NCBI GenBank assembly: GCA_000724175.1
Contig: JPGV01000029.1
Span: 75,379-122,651 of the forward strand
Reading direction: 5' to 3'
DNA length: 47,273 bases
Origin: [Candidatus Thermochlorobacteriaceae] bacterium GBChlB
Lineage (GTDB): Bacteria; Bacteroidota; Chlorobiia; Chlorobiales; Thermochlorobacteraceae
Below are positions 6,792 to 26,466 of the stretch, piece after piece. The notes under the pieces are model-generated. The model saw only the letters and a list, made by a program, of their open reading frames with translations. It had not been told where the DNA came from and searched no databases. The position numbers and the translations under genes are program-made. How positions within the stretch are numbered: position 1 is the stretch's first letter; every line of letters starts with the position of its first letter.

Positions 6792-7760
6792 TCAACGCAC
6801 ATGGTTGTGATGATGCTCATCGCGCGATTTCATTTCGGCAGCTTCGGTGCAGCCGTCGCCGTGTTTGATGGCGGATTTTACTTTGGCGTTTTCAAGCTGC
6901 ACCGTAACATGTTCAATGTTGAATTTTTCTTTCAACATTTTGTTGATGCCGAGAATGAGTGTTTCGCTGCAATCATATTCATCGACCAAGACATGACAGC
7001 TAAGCGCGTTCACGCCCGACGTGATTGACCACACGTGAAGGTCGTGCAAATCACAGACGTGCGTCATGTCGCGTAGCGCCCGCTCGACGCCCACAATATC
7101 AAGGTCTTTTGGCACAGACTCGAGCAACACATCAACCGCTTCAACGATGATTCCCCACGCACTTCGGACAATCAGCGCGGCGATAAAAAAGCTGACGATG
7201 GAATCTATCGGCGTCCAGCCCGTCAGCCACAGCAGCGCCGCACCGACCAACACGCCGACCGATCCCAGTAAATCGCTCAAGACATGCAGATACGCCGCCC
7301 GCACATTGACGCTCGCGGCGCTCGACGGATGCAGCAGCAGCACACTTATGATATTGGCAACCAAGCCAATGCCGCCATAGAGCATCATTTCTGACGAGTG
7401 AATGTCCTGCGTTTCAAACAGCCTGCGCACTGCCTCATAGCAAATCAGCATGGTAACGCCGAAGAGCAAGACGCCGTTGGCGAGCGCAGCTAAAATCTCG
7501 ACTCGATAAAATCCGTAGGTGCGCTGGGGCGTTGCGGGAAGCCGTGCTGCCCATGCGGCAAAGTATCCCAGCAAGAGCGAAAAGACGTCGGTCGCCATGT
7601 GTCCCGCGTCGGCGATGAGCGCGAGGCTGCCGCTTAAAAATCCGCCGATGAGTTCCACAAGAAAGACCGTTAGGGTTATGAGCGACGCCCAGCCCAACCC
7701 GCGTCTTGCATGGTCGCTCGTTTGAAGTTTGTGCAAGTAAATGTCGTGATTATGTTCCAT
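6792..7760 (-). CDS. CDF-family divalent metal cation efflux transporter
   Basis: Exports Zn2+, Co2+, Fe2+ or similar across the inner membrane by proton antiport. 322 residues with about six membrane segments and a cytoplasmic C-terminal dimer domain (LHDLHVWSI). The transport-site motifs are present: D51-x-x-H54-x-x-x-D58 in TM2 and H159-x-x-x-D163 in TM5. Short His-rich stretches sit at both ends (MEHNHD and DEHHHNH), as in CzcD/ZitB proteins. It starts 18 bases after a LolC/E-type permease and is the last gene of an eight-gene minus-strand block whose first gene is ferritin-like, so iron or another metal is plausible. Substrate specificity is not determined. Confidence 0.92.
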   Translation of the reverse strand: MEHNHDIYLHKLQTSDHARRGLGWASLITLTVFLVELIGGFLSGSLALIADAGHMATDVFSLLLGYFAAWAARLPATPQRTYGFYRVEILAALANGVLLFGVTMLICYEAVRRLFETQDIHSSEMMLYGGIGLVANIISVLLLHPSSAASVNVRAAYLHVLSDLLGSVGVLVGAALLWLTGWTPIDSIVSFFIAALIVRSAWGIIVEAVDVLLESVPKDLDIVGVERALRDMTHVCDLHDLHVWSITSGVNALSCHVLVDEYDCSETLILGINKMLKEKFNIEHVTVQLENAKVKSAIKHGDGCTEAAEMKSRDEHHHNHVR

Positions 7761-7778
7761 AGTTCTCTCGGTTGATTT

Positions 7779-9029
7779 TCACTTTCGCGCGGCGCGGTCG
7801 AGCACCGTTGCAGCTTTCTTGGCTGGGTAAATGCTTGCCAGCACTGCAATGCCCACCGCCGCAGCTGCGGCAATCAAAAAATCGTCTCGCTCAATTGCCA
7901 CTGGATACGCCTTGATGATAAACGCGTCGCCGTAGGGCAACGGCACAATGCCAAACGTTTGCTGCGCTGTGCAAATCAGCCAGCCCAATCCAATGCCGAT
8001 TGCCGTGCCGATGACGCCAATGAGCAATCCCTCGAAGAGGAAAATTTTTTCAATGCTTTGCTTTGTCATTCCAATACAATAAAGGAAATACAAATCCTGT
8101 TTTTTTTCAATCGCTGTCATCGTGAGCGACCCAATCAGGCTCATTGAGGCAACGATGATAATTAGCATCAGGATGATGAAACTTCCCCACTTTTCAAGTT
8201 TCATCACGCGGAAAAGTTCTTCGTATTTATCGGAGAGCGACTGCACGGCGTAGCGCTCGTTGAGCTGTTTTTCCATCAGCCACGCTTGAACCTGTTTTTT
8301 GAGCGTCTCGTTATCGATGCCAGCTGAGGCGTAAATATCAACGCCGCTAATATCGGCGGGCGACAGCCTGAAAATGCGTTGCGTGATTGGAAGAGCAGCA
8401 AGCACGTAGGCATCGTCGTAGGCTCTGTGCGCCGAGAAATAATTTTGAACGGTCAAGACGGGCAATTCGGGAGCGCTTGCCGTAATGCCGCGTTGCAGTG
8501 CGTCTAAGCCGTCGTCAATCGCTCTGGGGCTGAGCAAACGGGCTTCGGTTTTGTATGTCGCCGTAAATTTTTGAGCCAGCCCAATTCCAATCGTTAGGCT
8601 CTGGTTATCGAGTGGTTCGTAGCCTGCATCTAAAAATCGCGCCATGCGTTTATAGGCGCTTTGCTCTATGCCTTTAAGCGCCACAACGCCGCTTTGCCGC
8701 TCAGTTATCATCAAGACTTTTCCCTCGACGAAGCGATGCACCGATGCCACACTCGGCAGCCGTTTCAATTCCAAGAGCAGCGTATCCGAAATGGACATCG
8801 ACGCGCCGCGCGTTGACACAAGCTGCACATCGCTATCGACGACCAAAAACAAATCCGTCGCTAATTTACGAAAGCCGTTGAGGACACTCAACACAACCAC
8901 AATGGTGGTTACACCGATGATGACGCCTAAGATGCTAATGCCAGTGATGATATTGATGACGCGCGTTTTTTTGGCGGCGCGAATAAATCGATATGCCGCT
9001 AACTGCGCAACCTTGCCTTGATAACTCAT
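7779..9029 (-). CDS. LolC/LolE-type ABC permease (FtsX domain)
   Basis: Inner-membrane subunit of the LolCDE class, which releases lipoproteins to the outer membrane, or of a related MacB-like exporter. 416 residues: an N-terminal membrane segment (about 25-52) followed by VLNGF, as in LolC/E, a periplasmic MacB-PCD-like domain (about 55-270), then three membrane segments in the C-terminal FtsX domain. It is 12 bases downstream of the cNMP/PP2C phosphatase and 18 bases upstream of the CDF exporter. A second LolC/E-like permease lies on the other side of the phosphatase, so the pair probably forms a heterodimer. No ATPase is adjacent; the nearest LolD-type ATPase is at 25777. Confidence 0.85.
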   Translation of the reverse strand: MSYQGKVAQLAAYRFIRAAKKTRVINIITGISILGVIIGVTTIVVVLSVLNGFRKLATDLFLVVDSDVQLVSTRGASMSISDTLLLELKRLPSVASVHRFVEGKVLMITERQSGVVALKGIEQSAYKRMARFLDAGYEPLDNQSLTIGIGLAQKFTATYKTEARLLSPRAIDDGLDALQRGITASAPELPVLTVQNYFSAHRAYDDAYVLAALPITQRIFRLSPADISGVDIYASAGIDNETLKKQVQAWLMEKQLNERYAVQSLSDKYEELFRVMKLEKWGSFIILMLIIIVASMSLIGSLTMTAIEKKQDLYFLYCIGMTKQSIEKIFLFEGLLIGVIGTAIGIGLGWLICTAQQTFGIVPLPYGDAFIIKAYPVAIERDDFLIAAAAAVGIAVLASIYPAKKAATVLDRAARK

Positions 9030-9041
9030 GGGTAATGACGT

Positions 9042-10262
9042 TTATTTAAATCGCAACGCAACGATGGTCATATCGTCTAAGTTTTCGCGTTCTTCCGCAA
9101 AGCTGTTACACGCCTCGAAGAATTTTTCAGCAACGCCGACAGCGCTCTGTTCCGTTTTGCAAATTTTGTAGAGCATATCTGTCGCGGCTTCGTATCCCCA
9201 CATTCGATTGTTTTTGTTGAAGCGTTCCGCGAATCCGTCCGTCCAAAGAATCAGCATGTCGTTTTTTTCAAAGCGGAGTTCTTTCGTCTGCACGGGAATG
9301 CGTTTGAGGAAGCCGAGCGGCGGGCATTTCAACTCAATGCTTTCCATTGTTTGTTCAGCAGCGTTGAAGTAAAGCGGCAACGGCATTCCAAGCGACGTCA
9401 ATTTCAAGGTTCGCGTTCTGACATTGAGCAATCCGACGGCCAAGCTCATACCGAGACCGCGCTCATGGATCGCCTCACGCAAAGCGTCGTTGAAGCTCAT
9501 CATGATTTCCTCGAGCGGCTTTTTCGACAAGTCGCTTTTCGACGCGCTGACCAGCAAGACCTTCGCCATGCCGACGATTAAGCCTGCTGCCATGCCATGT
9601 CCGACCGCGTCGCCGCAAGCAATGACGTAAGTATCGTTGCCGACGTCGATGAAATCGTAGTAATCGCCGCCGACTTCGGTCGCGGTCATCATTTTCGCTG
9701 CCACTTCAACGCCTTCTAAATCCAAGTGGTCTTTTGGCAGCATAGAGAGTTGCACCTTGCGTGCGTATTCCAATTCCTCTGTTTTGCGTTTAAACTCCAA
9801 CGCTTCGAGTTCCTTGATTTTTTCCTGAATCAACCGCGCGGTGATGTCTCGCACACGAAATGAGAGAATCTTGATGAGGTTTTGCAGAATTTTTATCGCG
9901 TCTGATGCCCGCTCTCGAAAGAGCCAATCGAGATCGGGCTGTTGGAGTTTGAGCAATCTGGCTCGCTCTTTAACGACGACCATCGCCGAGCGTTTGAGAT
10001 TATCGAACATCGCCATTTCGCCAAGCACTTGCCCATCTTGGAGCGTGAGGAATTTTTCGTCGTCGCCGTCGGGATTTTTTTTATACAAATCGACTTTGCC
10101 CGATAAAATGACATACATCAATCGCGGCATATCGACGCCTTCGCGGAACAGCACAATGCCGGGGGGATGCTCCTCGACTTCAGCACGTGCAAAAAGCTCA
10201 GATAACGTCTCTTGTGAGACATTTTCGAAAAGTGGAATATGCTCGACGGAAAATGTAGTCAT
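9042..10262 (-). CDS. Cyclic-nucleotide-binding domain fused to PP2C-type (RsbU/SpoIIE) serine phosphatase
   Basis: Predicted cytoplasmic signalling phosphatase, usually acting on phosphorylated anti-sigma antagonists (STAS proteins). 406 residues. An N-terminal cNMP domain (about 5-115) keeps a plausible phosphate-binding cassette: Gly81-Glu82 and Arg91-Ser92-Ala93. A coiled-coil linker follows (about 145-175), then the SpoIIE domain with the metal-binding motifs GGDYYDF (198-204), GDAVGHG (217-223), WTDGFAE and the terminal DDMTIVAL. All key acidic residues are present, so it should be active. It lies between two LolC/E-like permease genes with gaps of 7 and 12 bases, an odd context. No anti-sigma partner is encoded in the window. 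Confidence 0.92.
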   Translation of the reverse strand: MTTFSVEHIPLFENVSQETLSELFARAEVEEHPPGIVLFREGVDMPRLMYVILSGKVDLYKKNPDGDDEKFLTLQDGQVLGEMAMFDNLKRSAMVVVKERARLLKLQQPDLDWLFRERASDAIKILQNLIKILSFRVRDITARLIQEKIKELEALEFKRKTEELEYARKVQLSMLPKDHLDLEGVEVAAKMMTATEVGGDYYDFIDVGNDTYVIACGDAVGHGMAAGLIVGMAKVLLVSASKSDLSKKPLEEIMMSFNDALREAIHERGLGMSLAVGLLNVRTRTLKLTSLGMPLPLYFNAAEQTMESIELKCPPLGFLKRIPVQTKELRFEKNDMLILWTDGFAERFNKNNRMWGYEAATDMLYKICKTEQSAVGVAEKFFEACNSFAEERENLDDMTIVALRFK

Positions 10263-10269
10263 CTTTTAT

Positions 10270-11538
10270 TCAAGAACGAATCGCCTCTACTGGATTTAAC
10301 TTCGCCGCGCTCGACGCTGGAACAAATGAGGCGGCAAACGAAATCAAGACGCTGATGAGAGAAACGGCAAGATAATGCGTTGGTTCAATCGCCAGAGGCA
10401 CTTGGCTGATATAATATGTTTCTTGTGGCAACGAAATCAAATGAAATTGTTTCTCGATAAGCGTCAGCACAAGCGCAAGCACATTGCCGAGCAACACACC
10501 GAGAACGGCAATCACCGCTGCCTGCGAGACAAAAATGCCGCGCACACTTTTTCGGCTGCCGCCAAACGACATCACAATTCCGATTTCGCCGCGCTTTTCC
10601 AAAATCATAATCAGCAGCGTCGAGACGATGTTAAACGCTGCCACGATTGTAATCACCAAGAGCAACAGTGGCACAATGTTCTCTTGCAATTTCATCCACG
10701 CAAATATGTTTTGATTAAGCTCATAGACCGAGCGCGCGACAATTGGAAACTTAAATAATTTGTTTGTTTCTGCGGTCGTCTGTTGTATGAGAGTTACATC
10801 TTTGACCGTCGCTTCATATCCCGTCAATTGTCCGTTTAGGTCTAAAAATGTTTGCATCGCGTCGAGCCGAGTAAAGACGACCACGTCGTCGTGTCCCTGC
10901 GACATTCCCGTCTCGAACATTCCAACCACCCGCGCCGACTCGATATGCAAGGCCTTCAGCGCATCAACGGCGCTCTTTTCGCGCCAACTGTCGGGCTGTA
11001 AATCTTTGCTCGATGCAATGACCAGCAATTCGTCGCCGACATTCACGGCGAGCTTCTGCGCCATTTTTTTTCCAACGACAGTCGGCAGGCTTTTTTCTGC
11101 TGGGCTGTCAGCGAAGAAGTTTCCTGCAATCATTTTTCGTCGTATAAACGACACATCGGTTTCCAGCACGATGCCTTTAAGCGTTGCAGGTTCGAGCGCA
11201 GACTCTAAACTGTCGCCTTTGGATTTTAAAATCACGCTGCGTTGCAAAAACGGTGAGAGCGCGGCAATGTTTTGAACTGACTTAATTTTGTTCGTGTCAA
11301 TTTCGCTGGTAAGCAGTTCTCGGAAGGCAGCGTGAGAGAGTTGCAGATGCGCTCCAAAGCCAATGAGTTTGGACTCGATTTCGCGCGTAAATCCGCTCAA
11401 CACAGACAGCGCGAGAATCAGTGCGGCAGTGCCGAGCGTTACGCCCAACGCAGCAACGGTAGCAATGAATGTGGGCGCTTTGCCACCCTGTGCTTTTGGA
11501 AACGCAAATCGCTGTGCAACCGTCAGTTCGAACTTCAC
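10270..11538 (-). CDS. LolC/LolE-type ABC permease (FtsX domain), second copy
   Basis: Same family as the permease at 7779 but diverged in sequence. 422 residues: an N-terminal membrane segment (about 25-48) followed by LSVLSGF, a periplasmic domain (about 50-275), and three C-terminal membrane segments around ITIVAAFNIVSTLLIM. The start is GTG at 11538, supported by a GGAAGGA ribosome-binding site nine bases upstream. It lies between the diguanylate cyclase (18 bases) and the phosphatase (7 bases). Two different FtsX permeases in one operon fit a LolC+LolE arrangement whose ATPase is encoded elsewhere. Confidence 0.85.
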   Translation of the reverse strand: MKFELTVAQRFAFPKAQGGKAPTFIATVAALGVTLGTAALILALSVLSGFTREIESKLIGFGAHLQLSHAAFRELLTSEIDTNKIKSVQNIAALSPFLQRSVILKSKGDSLESALEPATLKGIVLETDVSFIRRKMIAGNFFADSPAEKSLPTVVGKKMAQKLAVNVGDELLVIASSKDLQPDSWREKSAVDALKALHIESARVVGMFETGMSQGHDDVVVFTRLDAMQTFLDLNGQLTGYEATVKDVTLIQQTTAETNKLFKFPIVARSVYELNQNIFAWMKLQENIVPLLLLVITIVAAFNIVSTLLIMILEKRGEIGIVMSFGGSRKSVRGIFVSQAAVIAVLGVLLGNVLALVLTLIEKQFHLISLPQETYYISQVPLAIEPTHYLAVSLISVLISFAASFVPASSAAKLNPVEAIRS

Positions 11539-11547
11539 TTCACATAG

Positions 11548-11554
11548 TCCTTCC
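11548..11554 (-). promoter_or_regulatory. Shine-Dalgarno deciding the GTG start of the LolE-like gene
   Basis: GGAAGGA on the minus strand, nine bases before the GTG at 11538. An ATG closer to it (11545) runs immediately into TGA, so the GTG is the better start. Confidence 0.55.
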
Positions 11555-11556
11555 GT

Positions 11557-12903
11557 TTAGCCCGACGTCGCTGTTGCCTGGGAGACGTCTTCAAAATGAA
11601 CGACGCGGTTGCGCCCTTTGTGCTTGGCATCATAAAGTGCAATGTCGGCAGAACTGACGAGGGATTCTTCATCGGACGCATCGTTTGGAAATGTCGCCAC
11701 GCCGAGGCTCGCCGTTAGGTTTCCGCCCGGCTGGGCTTCTTGATTGACGAACACAGCATCCTCAATTGATTTTCTGATGCGCTCGGCAATCATTACCGCT
11801 TCGCTTTTATCGGTGCGCGGCAGCAGCACGGAAAATTCTTCGCCGCCGAACCGCGCGGGAATGTCGGTTTCTCGACATTCTTCCTTCATCAATCGGGCGA
11901 CTTTTTTCAAGACCTCGTCGCCGAGCAAGTGTCCATTGGTGTCGTTATAAACCTTGAACTTGTCGACGTCGAGCATAATGAGCGAGAGCGGTTCGCGGAA
12001 GCGCTTGGCGCGGGCAATTTCGGAACGCATCTGGCTCTTGAAATATCGATAGTTGAAGAGCTTTGTTTTCTCGTCCGTCATAATCAGCGTGCTGAGTTCG
12101 TTGGTCATTTCCTTCATCGCTAACCCGAACTCGCTCAATTTACGGGCGAGCATGGCGATTTCATCGTTAGGATTTCGCTTGGCAACAAACGCCCGCAAGC
12201 CATCGTTCATTCGGTCAATGCTCTTCATATCATCGACGCGCGCGTAGCTGACCATATCGGTTACTTGATTTATTGGGCGCGACGTCGTGCGATAAATAAA
12301 CCATGCCAAGAGCGTCAGCAACGGCACGAACACTGCGCCCATCACCATTGAGACTTGCAAAAATTTTCGCAACTCGTTTCGCACTTCATTCGAGGCTTTG
12401 GAGAGCTCAACTTCTTTTTTCTCGACGAGCGTATTGACCTTTTGATACATCGGCACTAACCGCTCGTTGTACTGCTTGGTGAGTTTCTTGATTTGTTCCT
12501 GCTCGTCTTTCGGCTTAGTTCTGGGCGGCACAACATGCTCTGCCTGCTCGAAGTATTCTTCTTGAAGTTGCTTGACTTGTGTAAGCGTCTGAACAGCTTC
12601 TTTGTCGTTGCGGTAGCTATCGGTGAGCAGGTTCAAATTTTGTTGCAAGGATTTTTTGACGCGCTTGGCTTCCTCGAGCCAATACTTGTTGTCGGAGGCG
12701 ACATATTTCCACAACGCCGCATCGTAACGCACCAGTTGCGCGTTCAAGTCGCTGGCAATCACGAACTCGTTGACGTTCTTCGCGATATACTGACTAAACC
12801 GCTCTTCGAATTTGAAAAAAAGGTAAAGTGCGGCACATGGAAACGCAGCGGATACAATTATCGCCGCAAACAGCAGCAGCGAAATTTTACTGCTAAATTT
12901 CAT
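11557..12903 (-). CDS. Membrane-bound diguanylate cyclase (sensor-HAMP-GGDEF)
   Basis: Makes cyclic di-GMP from two GTP. 448 residues: TM1 (about 9-30), a periplasmic helical sensor of roughly 160 residues resembling four-helix MCP/CHASE3 bundles (class not certain), TM2 (about 195-215), a HAMP-like linker, then the GGDEF domain. The active-site loop is GGEEF (353-357), a functional variant. Arg344-Glu-Thr-Asp347, five residues before it, is a canonical RxxD inhibitory I-site, so product feedback is expected. A GGGAG-type ribosome-binding site precedes the ATG. It lies 95 bases after the PstS-like pair and 18 before the LolE-like gene, suggesting that the lipoproteins or their ligand could feed its sensor domain. 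Confidence 0.92.
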   Translation of the reverse strand: MKFSSKISLLLFAAIIVSAAFPCAALYLFFKFEERFSQYIAKNVNEFVIASDLNAQLVRYDAALWKYVASDNKYWLEEAKRVKKSLQQNLNLLTDSYRNDKEAVQTLTQVKQLQEEYFEQAEHVVPPRTKPKDEQEQIKKLTKQYNERLVPMYQKVNTLVEKKEVELSKASNEVRNELRKFLQVSMVMGAVFVPLLTLLAWFIYRTTSRPINQVTDMVSYARVDDMKSIDRMNDGLRAFVAKRNPNDEIAMLARKLSEFGLAMKEMTNELSTLIMTDEKTKLFNYRYFKSQMRSEIARAKRFREPLSLIMLDVDKFKVYNDTNGHLLGDEVLKKVARLMKEECRETDIPARFGGEEFSVLLPRTDKSEAVMIAERIRKSIEDAVFVNQEAQPGGNLTASLGVATFPNDASDEESLVSSADIALYDAKHKGRNRVVHFEDVSQATATSG

Positions 12904-12998
12904 TGTCTTCTCCCATCGTTCTTTTTAATGTTCAGAATGTCCATCTTTAAACGGAATATAGCGCGTTCCGACGTGAATCGCCGTCGTTTTTCTCACGC

Positions 12999-13928
12999 TT
13001 AATCTTCTCGAAAATTCACGATGCGAACTGGCTGTTTGTAGGGCGCGAAGCCGTTTTTCTGAAAGACCCCTTGCCCTTCACGCGCCAGAAACGATGCAAA
13101 TCCTAACGGCAGTTTTTGGCGCAATGGATACGCAAAATAAATGCGATACGTAAGCGGATACTCGCCGAGATAGACTTGCTCCTGATGCGGCTCAACTGAC
13201 TCGACTCGACTGGAATCGCGCGCGACGATTATCGAGAGCACTTTAAATGCTGTCGTGTCGGGCTGGCGTATATCCAAAGCCGGTCGCGCATAGCCCGTTC
13301 CCGCGTATCCTAAAAACCCTTGCGATTTTGGCATAAAACTTTTCATCTGCGCGAAACTTGTGCAAGGATAGGCGCTTTTGGCAAACGACTCGGCACGGAG
13401 CAACGAATCTTGCAGATACTCTCGCTGCCCATCGTTGAGGCTTGTAATGAAGAGTTGAATCGGTTGCTTCTTACCGCCGACGCTCGACCAATCGGTAATT
13501 TTTCCGCTCAAAATATCGCGCAGTTGCGCTGGCGTGAGGGCTTTCACAGGGTTTTCAGGATGCACAAGAAAACATACGGCGTCGACGGCAATCGGCTTTT
13601 TTTCAAGCTCGAGTTCGACTTTTTTTAACGCTTCAGTTTCTTCGGGCTTGAAGTCGCGGGCAACGATGACAAACCGTGTCTCACGGTTGATGAGCTTCTC
13701 AATGGCTTTGCGCGTCAGCATTGTTTCATTCGTTATTTTGGCGTCTTGCCAGATGCGCATGAACTCCTTGAGCTGTGGGTCAATCATCGGCGCGACGGAT
13801 TGGTCAATGGTAACTTGCAGCGACCCTTTGGTCGTGGTTTCATCATCGCTTGTGTAGGCGCAACCGGTTAGAATGACTACCGCCGACAGCGCGGCGAGCA
13901 TTATTCTTGCAACGTGCGAAAGTGACAT
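12999..13928 (-). CDS. PstS-like substrate-binding lipoprotein, copy 1
   Basis: Predicted lipoprotein of the phosphate-binding (PstS/PBP-like) superfamily. 309 residues with a signal peptide ending in the lipobox LTGC. The family hallmark VCFLVHPENPVKALTP followed by LRDILSGKITDWSSVGG matches PstS-like proteins. The usual phosphate-binding loop (GSGT/SGTR) is replaced by SLNDGQREYL, so phosphate may not be the ligand. No PstA, PstB, PstC or PhoU gene is in the window. It forms a tandem pair with the next gene upstream (34-base gap) and precedes the diguanylate cyclase. A sensor role is inference. Confidence 0.85.
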   Translation of the reverse strand: MSLSHVARIMLAALSAVVILTGCAYTSDDETTTKGSLQVTIDQSVAPMIDPQLKEFMRIWQDAKITNETMLTRKAIEKLINRETRFVIVARDFKPEETEALKKVELELEKKPIAVDAVCFLVHPENPVKALTPAQLRDILSGKITDWSSVGGKKQPIQLFITSLNDGQREYLQDSLLRAESFAKSAYPCTSFAQMKSFMPKSQGFLGYAGTGYARPALDIRQPDTTAFKVLSIIVARDSSRVESVEPHQEQVYLGEYPLTYRIYFAYPLRQKLPLGFASFLAREGQGVFQKNGFAPYKQPVRIVNFRED

Positions 13929-13962
13929 TCGTTCTTTTGCCGATGAATGATTAAGTGATGGA

Positions 13963-15135
13963 CTATTTGTTAGGCGGCGTGAGTTTGAGCTGAGCTCGAA
14001 GCGGCACCAGTCCTTGTTTCAAAAAGACGCCCTGCCCTTCGCCCTCTAAGCTCTGTCCCAAAAATCCTGCAAAGCCGGGCGGCAGTTCGCCAACGCCGAT
14101 TCGAAGCGCGTAATAAATGTTGTAAGCTAACGGATATTCCAAACGGTTTCCTTTATCGTCACTGAAGCCGACGACATAGGCTTGGAACGGCAAGACGCGG
14201 TCTGCGCCAAACTTTTCGGTCGAGACCGCCAAGACTTTATACTGCGTCGTGTCGCGTTTGGTTTTATCCAAGTCGAGCGCAGCGCGCGCCTCGGTCATCG
14301 TCAGATACCCAATGCCGCCGGGCGTATTTTTCACGGCGTCAATCATTTCGGCGGCGGTTTTGCAGGTTACTGCACTGTCGGCAAATTTTTCGCCCGCCAG
14401 AACAGAGTCTTTGAGATATTCGCGGCGTCCGTCGTTTTCTGCCGAAAGGAATACTTTAATCGGGAGTTTTTTTCCGCCGACCTTTTCCCAATCATTAACC
14501 TTGCCGCTCAGAATGTCGCGCACTTGCGAGAAGCGCAGGTCTTCGACAACCTGTGTTGGATGCACAATGAGGCAGATGGCATCGCGGGCGATTTTGAGTT
14601 GGCGCGTTTCAACGCCAGCTTTCGCCATAGCGTCACGTTCCTCGGGCTTGAGGTCGCGCAACAGCAAAGCGAAGCGCAGCCGGTCGGCAATGAGCTCCGA
14701 AATCGCTTCGGCGGAACTCATCGGTTGCAAGAACAGCATCGCGTTTGTGCGTTTAGCTTTGAACGCCTTGACAAGTTCTTCGGCGAGCGGCATGAGCGCA
14801 GGGTCTACACCAACTGTCATTTCACCCGCGATGCTGGTTTCTTCTTTATGATTTCGCTCCGAGAGCGCTTGCACCGCGCGCTTATAGATTGGGTCGCTCG
14901 AGAGCGATAGGAGCGTGCCTCGTTCCTGTGGAGTGAGCGCGCCTGCCAGCATGAGTTTTTTCGTGGCAGCATCGTAGCGCACTTTCTTTTGCAGGTCCGA
15001 CGGAAACTGTACACCTTGTGGCAACGTCTCGAGCGTAACCCCCGTCTCGGGCTGTCCGCACGCCGCCAAAAGCATTGCCATTAACAACGCAAGCAAAACG
15101 AGGCGGTCGTTTCCAACGACAAATGTTGAGTTCAT
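13963..15135 (-). CDS. PstS-like substrate-binding lipoprotein, copy 2
   Basis: Paralogue of the 12999 gene. 390 residues with a signal peptide ending in the lipobox LAAC. It has about 80 extra residues before the binding domain, including PQERGTLLSLSSDPIYKRAV. Shared landmarks are ICLIVHPTQVVEDL, VRDILSGKVNDWEKVGGKK and the altered loop SAENDGRREYLKDS where PstS has SGTR. Residues around TPGGIGYLTMTEARAALDL match the PstS C-terminal lobe. It lies 36 bases after the ferritin-like gene. The tandem duplication and the shared loop change argue for a common new ligand. Confidence 0.85.
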   Translation of the reverse strand: MNSTFVVGNDRLVLLALLMAMLLAACGQPETGVTLETLPQGVQFPSDLQKKVRYDAATKKLMLAGALTPQERGTLLSLSSDPIYKRAVQALSERNHKEETSIAGEMTVGVDPALMPLAEELVKAFKAKRTNAMLFLQPMSSAEAISELIADRLRFALLLRDLKPEERDAMAKAGVETRQLKIARDAICLIVHPTQVVEDLRFSQVRDILSGKVNDWEKVGGKKLPIKVFLSAENDGRREYLKDSVLAGEKFADSAVTCKTAAEMIDAVKNTPGGIGYLTMTEARAALDLDKTKRDTTQYKVLAVSTEKFGADRVLPFQAYVVGFSDDKGNRLEYPLAYNIYYALRIGVGELPPGFAGFLGQSLEGEGQGVFLKQGLVPLRAQLKLTPPNK

Positions 15136-15171
15136 ATTCCAAAACTAATTTTCAGGTTTTTGTTAAAAAAC

Positions 15172-15654
15172 TTAGTTGCCGTTTTTGAAGGCGTGAATAT
15201 CGCCCGGGCTGCGAAGCATTTTGTTCACTTCCGCGATGTGCAACTCTTCGTCGTGAATCATTTGACGGGCGTATTCTTCGAGCAAAATGGATTTGTCCTT
15301 AACGAGTTCTAAGAGCTCTCGGTAGTAGGCGAGCGCGGTCAGTTCGGCTTCCAGCGATTCGCGCAAGATGGCACCGATGTCATGGTTTTCCGTCTCAAGC
15401 AAATGTCCAATCGCGAGCGATGGATGTTCGCCCATCCCTGTAATGAGTTCGCCCGCTTGCTGTGCATGCGCCAGCGATTCGGTTGCTTGCGAGCGAAGCC
15501 ACGAGACAATCGGAATGCGGTTGTATCCGTAGATCATCAGCGAATAGTGCGTATAGCGCACTACACCGGCGAGCTCGGCTTCCAAAATTTTGTTCAAGAC
15601 AGCGGTTACCGCTTTTCTGTCGATTTTTTCATCGAGAAATGTGGTCGTTGGCAT
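15172..15654 (-). CDS. Bacterioferritin-like ferroxidase/iron-storage protein
   Basis: Four-helix ferritin-like protein of 160 residues, the usual size for bacterioferritin; predicted to oxidise and store iron in the cytoplasm. Likely metal ligands are Glu25 or Glu27 in helix 1, Glu59/His63 in helix 2 (an E-xxx-H spacing rather than the textbook ExxH), Glu99/Glu102/Glu104 in helix 3, and the clean E136-x-x-H139 in helix 4. The ATESLAHAQQAGELITGMG segment is typical of one bacterioferritin branch. It is the first gene of the eight-gene minus-strand block and divergent from the L,D-transpeptidase across 91 bases. Heme binding cannot be shown. Confidence 0.85.
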   Translation of the reverse strand: MPTTTFLDEKIDRKAVTAVLNKILEAELAGVVRYTHYSLMIYGYNRIPIVSWLRSQATESLAHAQQAGELITGMGEHPSLAIGHLLETENHDIGAILRESLEAELTALAYYRELLELVKDKSILLEEYARQMIHDEELHIAEVNKMLRSPGDIHAFKNGN

Positions 15655-15745
15655 CTTTGAAAAGAGTTAGAGTTTAAAGAAATTGATTCGCGGAAATTTA
15701 GGTGAAATTTTCCGTATCTCATTTAATTGCTGCCAAAATAAAAAA

Positions 15746-16246
15746 ATGAACGCGGTTCTTGTTGTTTTATGCTTGTTTAGATTTGGTCAAAGCCCAAGCG
15801 CAGCGGCGCAAGTTGAGCCACCACGCCGCATCGTTATTACCCAACATAATTTTACGCTACGGCTCTTCAAAGGCGATTCGCTCGAGAAAAGCTATCCGGT
15901 AGCGGTCGGCAAAAACGCAGGCGATAAGGAACGCGTCGGCGATTGTCGCACGCCCGTTGGCGCGTTTTACATTTCACAAATTCAAGATGCGCGGGCATGG
16001 ACGCATGATTTCAACGATGGAAAGGGCATCATTAAAGGCGCTTACGGTCCGTGGTTTCTACGGCTTTACACAGGCGCAGATAAAACGCGCTCGGGCAAAG
16101 CATGGACAGGCATTGGAATTCACGGCACACACGCGCCCGAATCCATTGGCACGGCGGCGACCGAAGGCTGCATTCGTTTAAGGAACAGCGACCTTCAAGA
16201 CCTCAAATCGCGTGTTAAGGTTGGCATGCCAGTGATCATCGAGTAA
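15746..16246 (+). CDS. L,D-transpeptidase (YkuD domain), exported
   Basis: Crosslinks peptidoglycan by L,D-linkages or attaches proteins to it; periplasmic. I chose the ATG at 15746 because it yields a signal peptide (MNAVLVVLCLFRFGQSPSAAA); an upstream ATG at 15683 would add 21 unlikely residues. The product has 166 residues. The YkuD active site is complete: HGTHAPESIG, then the catalytic Cys in EGCIRLRNSD. GDCRTPVGAFYIS is the usual substrate-side motif. The 3' end overlaps that of the convergent TfoX-like gene by 11 bases. Confidence 0.92.
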   Translation: MNAVLVVLCLFRFGQSPSAAAQVEPPRRIVITQHNFTLRLFKGDSLEKSYPVAVGKNAGDKERVGDCRTPVGAFYISQIQDARAWTHDFNDGKGIIKGAYGPWFLRLYTGADKTRSGKAWTGIGIHGTHAPESIGTAATEGCIRLRNSDLQDLKSRVKVGMPVIIE

Positions 16247-25776: not shown

Positions 25777-26466
25777 ATGCAGCCTGTTCTCAGCGTTACA
25801 AACCTCACCAAAAGTTATCGGAGCGGCGAGGGCATCTTGGTGGCATTGCACAATGTTTCCTTCACGCTCAACGAAGGGGACACCTGCGCGATTGTCGGTC
25901 CATCTGGGTCGGGCAAAACCACGCTCTTAGGCATTTGCGCGGGACTCGACCGACAAACCAGCGGGTCAGTAACGCTCGCGGGCGTAACGCTCGACCATCT
26001 TTCGGAAGATGAACGCGCTAAAGTGCGCAATCAATTCGTTGGCTTTGTGTTTCAAAGTTTTCAATTGATACCTACGCTCACCGCGCTGGAAAATGTCATG
26101 GTGCCGATGGAACTGCGCGGCGAAAAAAACGTCCGAAAAGACGCGATTGACTTACTCGAGCAAGTTGGGCTGGGACAACGGCTCTCGCACTATCCCACGC
26201 AACTATCGGGCGGCGAACAGCAGCGCGTCGCCATCGCTCGCTCGTTCATCAACAAACCGAAAATCCTCTTTGCCGACGAACCCACCGGCAACTTGGACGC
26301 CGAGACCAGCGAAAAAATCGAAAACCTCTTGTTCGATTTAAATCGGGATAAAAAGACAACTCTCGTGGTGGTTACGCACAACCTTGACCTTGCTCAAAAA
26401 ACACGGCGCATTATCCGCTTGAAGGGCGGCGCGGTCGTCTCCGATTCGGCTGTGGGCGCAGACTAA
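25777..26466 (+). CDS. LolD/YbbA-type ABC transporter ATPase
   Basis: 229 residues. Complete nucleotide-binding domain of the MacB/LolD branch: Walker A GPSGSGKTT (41-49), Q-loop VFQSFQLIPTLTALENVM, signature LSGGEQQRVAIARS (about 147), Walker B ILFADEPTGNLD, H-loop VVTHNLDLA. It would power a LolC/E- or MacB-type permease, but none is adjacent; the only such permeases in the window are at 7779 and 10270. It lies 19 bases after IDH and 45 bases before the M48 lipoprotein protease. Confidence 0.92.
   Translation: MQPVLSVTNLTKSYRSGEGILVALHNVSFTLNEGDTCAIVGPSGSGKTTLLGICAGLDRQTSGSVTLAGVTLDHLSEDERAKVRNQFVGFVFQSFQLIPTLTALENVMVPMELRGEKNVRKDAIDLLEQVGLGQRLSHYPTQLSGGEQQRVAIARSFINKPKILFADEPTGNLDAETSEKIENLLFDLNRDKKTTLVVVTHNLDLAQKTRRIIRLKGGAVVSDSAVGAD

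Follow-up and report, generated by a model that had tools for sequence, protein, structure and literature searches.

The PstS-like lipoprotein, the membrane diguanylate cyclase and the LolC-like and LolE-like permeases analyzed in this work constitute, judging from their gene neighborhoods, an old operon of the order Chlorobiales, as this core is kept in relatives while the flanking genes differ. In the genome studied here, the core is embedded in a block of eight genes, and the same comparison marks the ferritin, the cNMP-phosphatase and the CDF exporter genes of this block as later local additions.

Organization of the gene block

The analyzed stretch of DNA (hereafter, the window; 47,273 nucleotides) comes from the 3.05-Mb genome (51 contigs) of Candidatus Thermochlorobacteriaceae bacterium GBChlB. 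Its eight open reading frames (ORFs) spanning positions 6792-15654 are all located on the minus strand, with gaps, along the direction of transcription, of 36, 34, 95, 18, 7, 12, and 18 bp. The order of the genes and the seven gaps reported in the first-pass annotation agreed exactly with the ORF coordinates. The Pfam and NCBIfam searches identified Ferritin, two PBP_like_2, GGDEF, two FtsX+MacB_PCD, cNMP_binding+SpoIIE, and Cation_efflux+ZT_dimer proteins, which upheld the earlier domain calls with the exception of the HAMP domain assigned to the cyclase. In the order of transcription, the features are as follows:

15172..15654, minus strand, ferritin-like protein (160 aa; Pfam Ferritin 8.6e-16)
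13963..15135, minus strand, PstS-1, a PBP_like_2 lipoprotein with an extra N-terminal region (PBP_like_2 9.3e-27; predicted core operon, duplicated copy)
12999..13928, minus strand, PstS-2, a PBP_like_2 lipoprotein (PBP_like_2 1.1e-36; predicted core operon)
12904..12998, minus strand, 95-bp gap between PstS-2 and the cyclase, the widest of the block (read from the sequence)
11557..12903, minus strand, membrane diguanylate cyclase (GGDEF 5.5e-45; predicted core operon)
10270..11538, minus strand, LolC/E-like permease A (422 aa, GTG start; FtsX+MacB_PCD; predicted core operon)
9042..10262, minus strand, cNMP-binding and SpoIIE (PP2C-type) phosphatase (SpoIIE 4.1e-33, cNMP_binding 5.9e-17)
7779..9029, minus strand, LolC/E-like permease B (416 aa; FtsX+MacB_PCD; predicted core operon)
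6792..7760, minus strand, ZitB-like CDF cation exporter (Cation_efflux 3.2e-44; CDF superfamily 282 bits; ZitB 249 of 408)

No other run of eight genes separated by gaps of less than 100 bp exists among the 45 non-overlapping ORFs in the window, the runner-up comprising five. The GC content of the block (0.509) is close to that of the window (0.514), and there is therefore no sign of foreign DNA. Same-strand orientation by itself would be weak evidence for a functional block, and a part of it appears to be more than a product of chance because it is conserved in relatives. The 95-bp gap is a possible second transcription start. Scanning of the vicinity of the block for promoters gave 10 promoter-like matches, hardly above the shuffled sequences (mean 6.6, sd 2.7), and the terminator scan of the block region (18 matches vs. 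15.5 expected) was uninformative. A gene for a YkuD L,D-transpeptidase (window positions 15683-16246) is divergent from the ferritin gene, and the same pair was found in three other loci (L043, L047, and L122).

Conservation of the core operon in Chlorobiales

For the comparative analyses, the coordinates of three separate searches were merged to count adjacencies within Chlorobiales, in which the source genome represents the family f1 and f4 denotes Chlorobiaceae. In 58 of the 62 genomes carrying both, orthologs of the PstS-like protein and of the cyclase are encoded by neighboring genes with the same orientation, which bears out the co-occurrence of the PstS-like proteins with this particular cyclase that the first-pass annotation had put forward for checking. 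Among 53 genomes, the nearest gene for a LolC-type permease lies no more than 300 bp from the cyclase gene in 42 and no more than 1.2 kb from it in 46. The order of the core genes is held at 35-50% identity through four families. Many Chlorobiaceae have these four genes packed tightly, with overlaps of 1-11 bp or only 1-20 bp between them, the spacing between the PstS-like and cyclase genes being 4-12 bp or an overlap. When the 20-kb neighborhoods of the cyclase gene in families f1-f3 were set against those in Chlorobiaceae, PstS, GGDEF, and LolC/E were the only gene families shared repeatedly; two others are common to both sets, each owing to one f1-f3 locus. The earlier annotation had regarded the block as accidental should relatives keep its genes scattered; the four-part core is kept together across the order, so that this condition does not refute the block.

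In some genomes the core is dispersed: every part is scattered in G003, the PstS-like gene is displaced in G009 (which we take to be Chloroherpeton thalassium) and G012, and the PstS-like and ferritin genes of G004 are split from those of the cyclase and the LolC/E-like permeases. The LolE-like gene was found away from the LolC-like one (at ~8 kb, at 111 kb, or on another contig) in G031, G040, G041, G045, G049, G054, G055, and G060, which represent a part of the Chlorobiaceae genus g7. In G034, presumably Chlorobaculum tepidum TLS, the four core genes stand in order and include the only GGDEF gene of the genome. In this presumed C. tepidum, the genes transcribed divergently to the core operon (L204:12364-14694) are argC- and argJ-like, and the same families flank it in several further Chlorobiaceae. 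The search for related loci on contigs with PstS-1 gave no match, and the cyclase profile found there mostly unrelated GGDEF proteins. A presumed fusion of the PstS-like protein with the cyclase in G036 (740 aa) was rejected, as a stop codon separates the two genes.

Local additions to the core

The ferritin gene located upstream of PstS-1 is confined to the family of the source genome, where PstS-1 has a 78-84% identical ferritin neighbor in six sister loci. No full-length relative of the cNMP-SpoIIE phosphatase was found in the 14 other genomes of the 15 searched, and the source genome is the only one among them in which this gene is wedged between the two permease genes. In the sister genera g2 and g3, as well as in many Chlorobiaceae, the permease genes abut or overlap without it. 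A separate cNMP-domain protein, 44-49% identical to the phosphatase over its first 150 residues, is encoded 3' of the CDF gene in genera g3, g5, and g8, and also elsewhere in the source genome. The CDF exporter gene follows that of permease B in the same three genera as well; its distribution is patchy, the gene being adjacent in some genera only. In genus g3, a gene encoding a 337-aa 2-hydroxyacid dehydrogenase is inserted between the cyclase and LolC-like genes; this product had been considered a candidate phosphatase, which its identity as a dehydrogenase excluded. The earlier view of the eight genes as one system is thus not supported, given the phosphatase lacking a full-length relative in the 14 genomes, the family-level distribution of the ferritin, and the patchiness of the CDF exporter.

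The diguanylate cyclase and the c-di-GMP inventory

The predicted cyclase consists of a transmembrane segment, a helical periplasmic region, a second transmembrane segment, a linker, and a GGDEF domain with an intact GGEEF motif and RxxD I-site. GGDEF was the only domain scoring above the Pfam cut-off; a HAMP domain was not detected, and a match to it (E = 0.034) appeared in one relative only. The GGEEF/GGDEF and RxxD motifs are intact in every ortholog checked except that of G022, a genome closely related to the presumed C. tepidum TLS. The cyclase gene of G022 (L065:10782-12022) is split over two frames, which reflects either a naturally disrupted copy or an error in sequencing. The guanine-binding positions N320 and D329 are invariant in the orthologs. 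Such invariant Asn and Asp guanine contacts are expected of a true c-di-GMP enzyme rather than of a Hypr one.

The periplasmic region, helical in the AF2 model and shorter in Chlorobiaceae, is fast-evolving, with a mean identity of 39% against 67% in the catalytic part. Full-length orthologs of the cyclase occur throughout Chlorobiales, and none was found outside the order among 296 sampled genomes of the phylum, where the GGDEF domain alone matches.

Furthermore, the operon cyclase is encoded by the sole GGDEF gene in 37 of the 49 Chlorobiaceae genomes. The search for c-di-GMP partners covered EAL, HD-GYP, PilZ, and MshEN domains. None of the 49 Chlorobiaceae genomes encodes EAL, and PilZ and MshEN were missing throughout the 61 genomes searched; of the 37 Chlorobiaceae genomes with a single GGDEF gene, 35 also lack HD-GYP and hence all four partners. 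It is conceivable, albeit unlikely, that green sulfur bacteria possess a one-cyclase c-di-GMP circuit wired via the degenerate PstS-like protein to Lol export, in which c-di-GMP would report or set Lol traffic and not motility or biofilm formation.

The LolC/E-like permeases

Permeases A and B correspond to the two best matches to TIGR02212 in Chlorobiales genomes, among the matches listed. Their scores (215 and 192 bits, respectively) are under the curated cut-off of 362 bits, reached in none of the 61 genomes, and "LolC/E-like" is therefore the safe name. In comparisons with solved structures, the profile of permease A matched LolF and LolE (1e-51 to 2e-48) and that of permease B matched LolF, LolE, and LolC (1e-44 to 2e-40); overall, the matches of both to LolF, LolE, and LolC ranged from 1e-34 to 1e-51 (those to LolF and LolE from 1e-51 to 9e-41), while MacB gave 1e-10 or worse, or was not listed. 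The two proteins are probably housekeeping lipoprotein exporters. As the best LolC/E candidates of the genome, nearer to the LolF, LolE, and LolC structures than to MacB, they do not fit the part of signaling outputs that they had been given earlier.

Genes for LolD-like ATPases, all scoring under the cut-off, are present elsewhere in the source genome, and none of them is located in the block. One LolD-like ABC ATPase gene lies within the window (25777-26466) without an adjacent permease gene; its neighbors encode an isocitrate/isopropylmalate dehydrogenase-like protein and an M48 peptidase.

The PstS-like proteins

The AF2 model of PstS-2 (pLDDT 92.5) retains the PBP fold, and its nearest PDB fold is that of phosphate-bound PstS 4gd5 (E 2.3e-22, TM-score 0.89 by target length). 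The four phosphate loops (GSTS, GSSAG, SR, and GSGTR) all lack the consensus in each of the 33 Chlorobiales sequences aligned with 4gd5, and the single outgroup PstS-like sequence of the alignment has lost the phosphate-binding residues too. The residues that are invariant in the PstS-like proteins (G, F, Y, P, G, Q, and P) are of the scaffold type only. The TIGR02136 scores of 102.7 and 104.1 bits (the latter that of PstS-1) amount to about half of the cut-off (206.6 bits). In Chlorobaculum-like genomes, the PstS-like protein is devoid of the lipobox cysteine and carries an N-terminal hydrophobic segment instead, which suggests an inner-membrane location.

Of the 17 homologous loci examined outside the order (L104-L120), 15 have a gene for a TonB homolog upstream of the PstS-like gene, and 15 have one for a TPR homolog downstream of it. 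Together with the loss of the phosphate loops, this context speaks against the previous proposal that the lipoproteins sense an extracellular ligand. In G010 (L039:4414-8082), a TonB gene precedes the genes for two PstS-like proteins, the cyclase, and the LolC-like and LolE-like permeases; this arrangement suggests an intermediate between the TonB-PstS-TPR context of Bacteroidota and the operon of Chlorobiales and hints at the origin of the latter.

Loss of the cyclase

Within six Chlorobiaceae genomes without the cyclase (G020, G021, G032, G046, G049, and G055), the PstS-like gene lies 14-47 bp from the LolC-like one; in five of the six, other genes for GGDEF and for HD-GYP proteins are present. 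Two more Chlorobiaceae genomes lack the cyclase gene between the PstS-like and LolC-like genes, which are ~23 bp (G293) and ~140 bp (G265) apart in terms of match-to-match distances. In the LolC tree, the losses fall in two groups, one of them poorly resolved, and there were probably at least two cyclase-loss events. The persistence of the PstS-like gene beside the LolC-like one in these eight genomes indicates a role or a linkage of the PstS-like protein that is independent of the cyclase; on this neighborhood evidence, the PstS-like protein is not merely a sensor for that enzyme. Given the same genomes, a strict relay from the PstS-like protein to the cyclase, as assumed in the first-pass annotation, is not supported.

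A possible mechanism and the alternatives

The reading that we prefer, although we hold it tentatively and slightly short of an even chance, is that the PstS-like protein is a protein partner of the Lol permeases and the cyclase, so that lipoprotein export and c-di-GMP are set together, and the extra genes are local additions. The PstS-like protein would be tethered to the periplasmic side of the inner membrane, where it would act as a protein-interaction partner and not as a phosphate receptor, contacting both the Lol permeases and the helical periplasmic region of the cyclase. The cyclase would make c-di-GMP according to the state of the envelope, lipoprotein export and the c-di-GMP level would thereby be set jointly, and the phosphatase and metal genes would be riders. 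The eight genomes described above argue for the link to the permeases, and the PstS-like proteins with a hydrophobic N-terminus in place of the lipobox are consistent with an inner-membrane anchor. Further points in favor are the preserved order of the core amid unshared flanking genes, the intact motifs of the cyclase, the TIGR02212 rank of the permeases, and the loss of the phosphate loops from a retained PBP fold. Against this reading count the missing co-divergence of the PstS-like protein with the sensor region, the separability of the parts (G003, G004, G009, and G012), the permease scores under the curated cut-off, and the lack of a LolD gene in the block.

Two other explanations, equal to each other and each clearly less probable than the preferred one, have to be weighed. 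According to one of them, which we regard as rather unlikely, the core is a PBP-controlled c-di-GMP module of the NspS-MbaA type, in which a small ligand bound by the PstS-like protein would lead it to switch the cyclase via the periplasmic helices of that enzyme, the permeases being only co-transcribed. The adjacency of the two genes and their tight spacing in many Chlorobiaceae favor this explanation, as does the retained PBP fold, and control of c-di-GMP enzymes by PBP proteins is already established (PMC8967002, PMC9993111). However, the phosphate-binding residues are gone and only scaffold-type residues are invariant, the PstS-like gene stays beside the LolC-like one where the cyclase is missing, and the sensor region shows no co-divergence with the PstS-like protein. 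In 14 Chlorobiaceae, the co-divergence of the two beyond LolC distances gave a partial Mantel value of -0.04 (p = 0.58), and this negative result weakens a direct contact between the PstS-like protein and the cyclase. The partial correlation with the catalytic part of the cyclase in the same set (0.44, p = 0.006) is unexplained and no weight was placed on it.

The second explanation, improbable to the same degree, is that of co-expression only, i.e., the LolC/E-like permeases, the PBP-like lipoprotein, and the cyclase would share a common promoter for reasons of dosage or history, without direct contact. This would account for the shifting membership (the cyclase lost in several Chlorobium-like lineages, the PstS-like gene displaced in Chloroherpeton-like genomes), for the varying insertions (the 2-hydroxyacid dehydrogenase in g3, the phosphatase in the source genome), and for the coupling of the PstS-like gene to TonB and TPR genes outside the order, with TonB still upstream in G010. 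On the other hand, the adjacency has outlasted a deep divergence despite the full reshuffling around it, which exceeds the expectation for neutral neighbors. Finally, a relay comprising the whole block, in which the lipoproteins sense a ligand, the cyclase and the phosphatase relay it, and the permeases and metal genes are the outputs, accords with the tight same-strand run of eight genes, but is highly improbable given the phosphatase confined to the source genome among the 15 searched, the patchy ferritin and CDF genes, and permeases that are likely general Lol exporters.

Should the cyclase be functionally tied to LolC/E, as in the preferred reading, c-di-GMP would, to our knowledge, be connected with lipoprotein export for the first time; no title or abstract reporting such a link was found in a literature search whose coverage left subscription journals largely outside. 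The presumed C. tepidum TLS would offer a clean model, in which a single knockout would abolish any c-di-GMP produced by GGDEF proteins.

Comparison with known systems

The NspS-MbaA system of Vibrio cholerae and Sinorhizobium meliloti resembles the core in having a gene for a PBP-fold protein beside that for a membrane GGDEF protein. Here, however, the PBP protein belongs to another family, is a lipoprotein or membrane-anchored, and is retained without the enzyme in several genomes, whereas the GGDEF protein lacks EAL and the pair is coupled to LolC/E. The likeness to the LolCDE and LolF exporters lies in the two full-length FtsX/MacB_PCD permeases, for which LolF, LolE, and LolC are the nearest solved structures; in contrast to those exporters, the permeases studied here remain under the lolCE cut-off, their operon is without LolD, and it also encodes a cyclase together with a PBP-like protein. 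With PstS (TIGR02136; 4gd5), the PstS-like proteins share the fold and the superfamily, but the four phosphate loops are altered, the curated score is halved, and the block contains no pst transporter genes. The TonB-PstS-like-TPR operon of other Bacteroidota (L104-L120) has the PstS-like family in common with the core, whose partners in Chlorobiales are the cyclase and LolC/E, with TonB in addition to these in G010.

As in SiaABCD of Pseudomonas aeruginosa, a SpoIIE-type phosphatase gene is clustered with that of a GGDEF enzyme in the block, and NF038263 and NF038266 were among the matches; nevertheless, the phosphatase found here is cNMP-linked and absent from relatives. Membership in this system was rejected on the scores (53 of 700 and 162 of 290 bits), and no match to SiaB or SiaC was obtained among the block proteins. 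In the core operon of Chlorobiales, known parts are combined in a new way.
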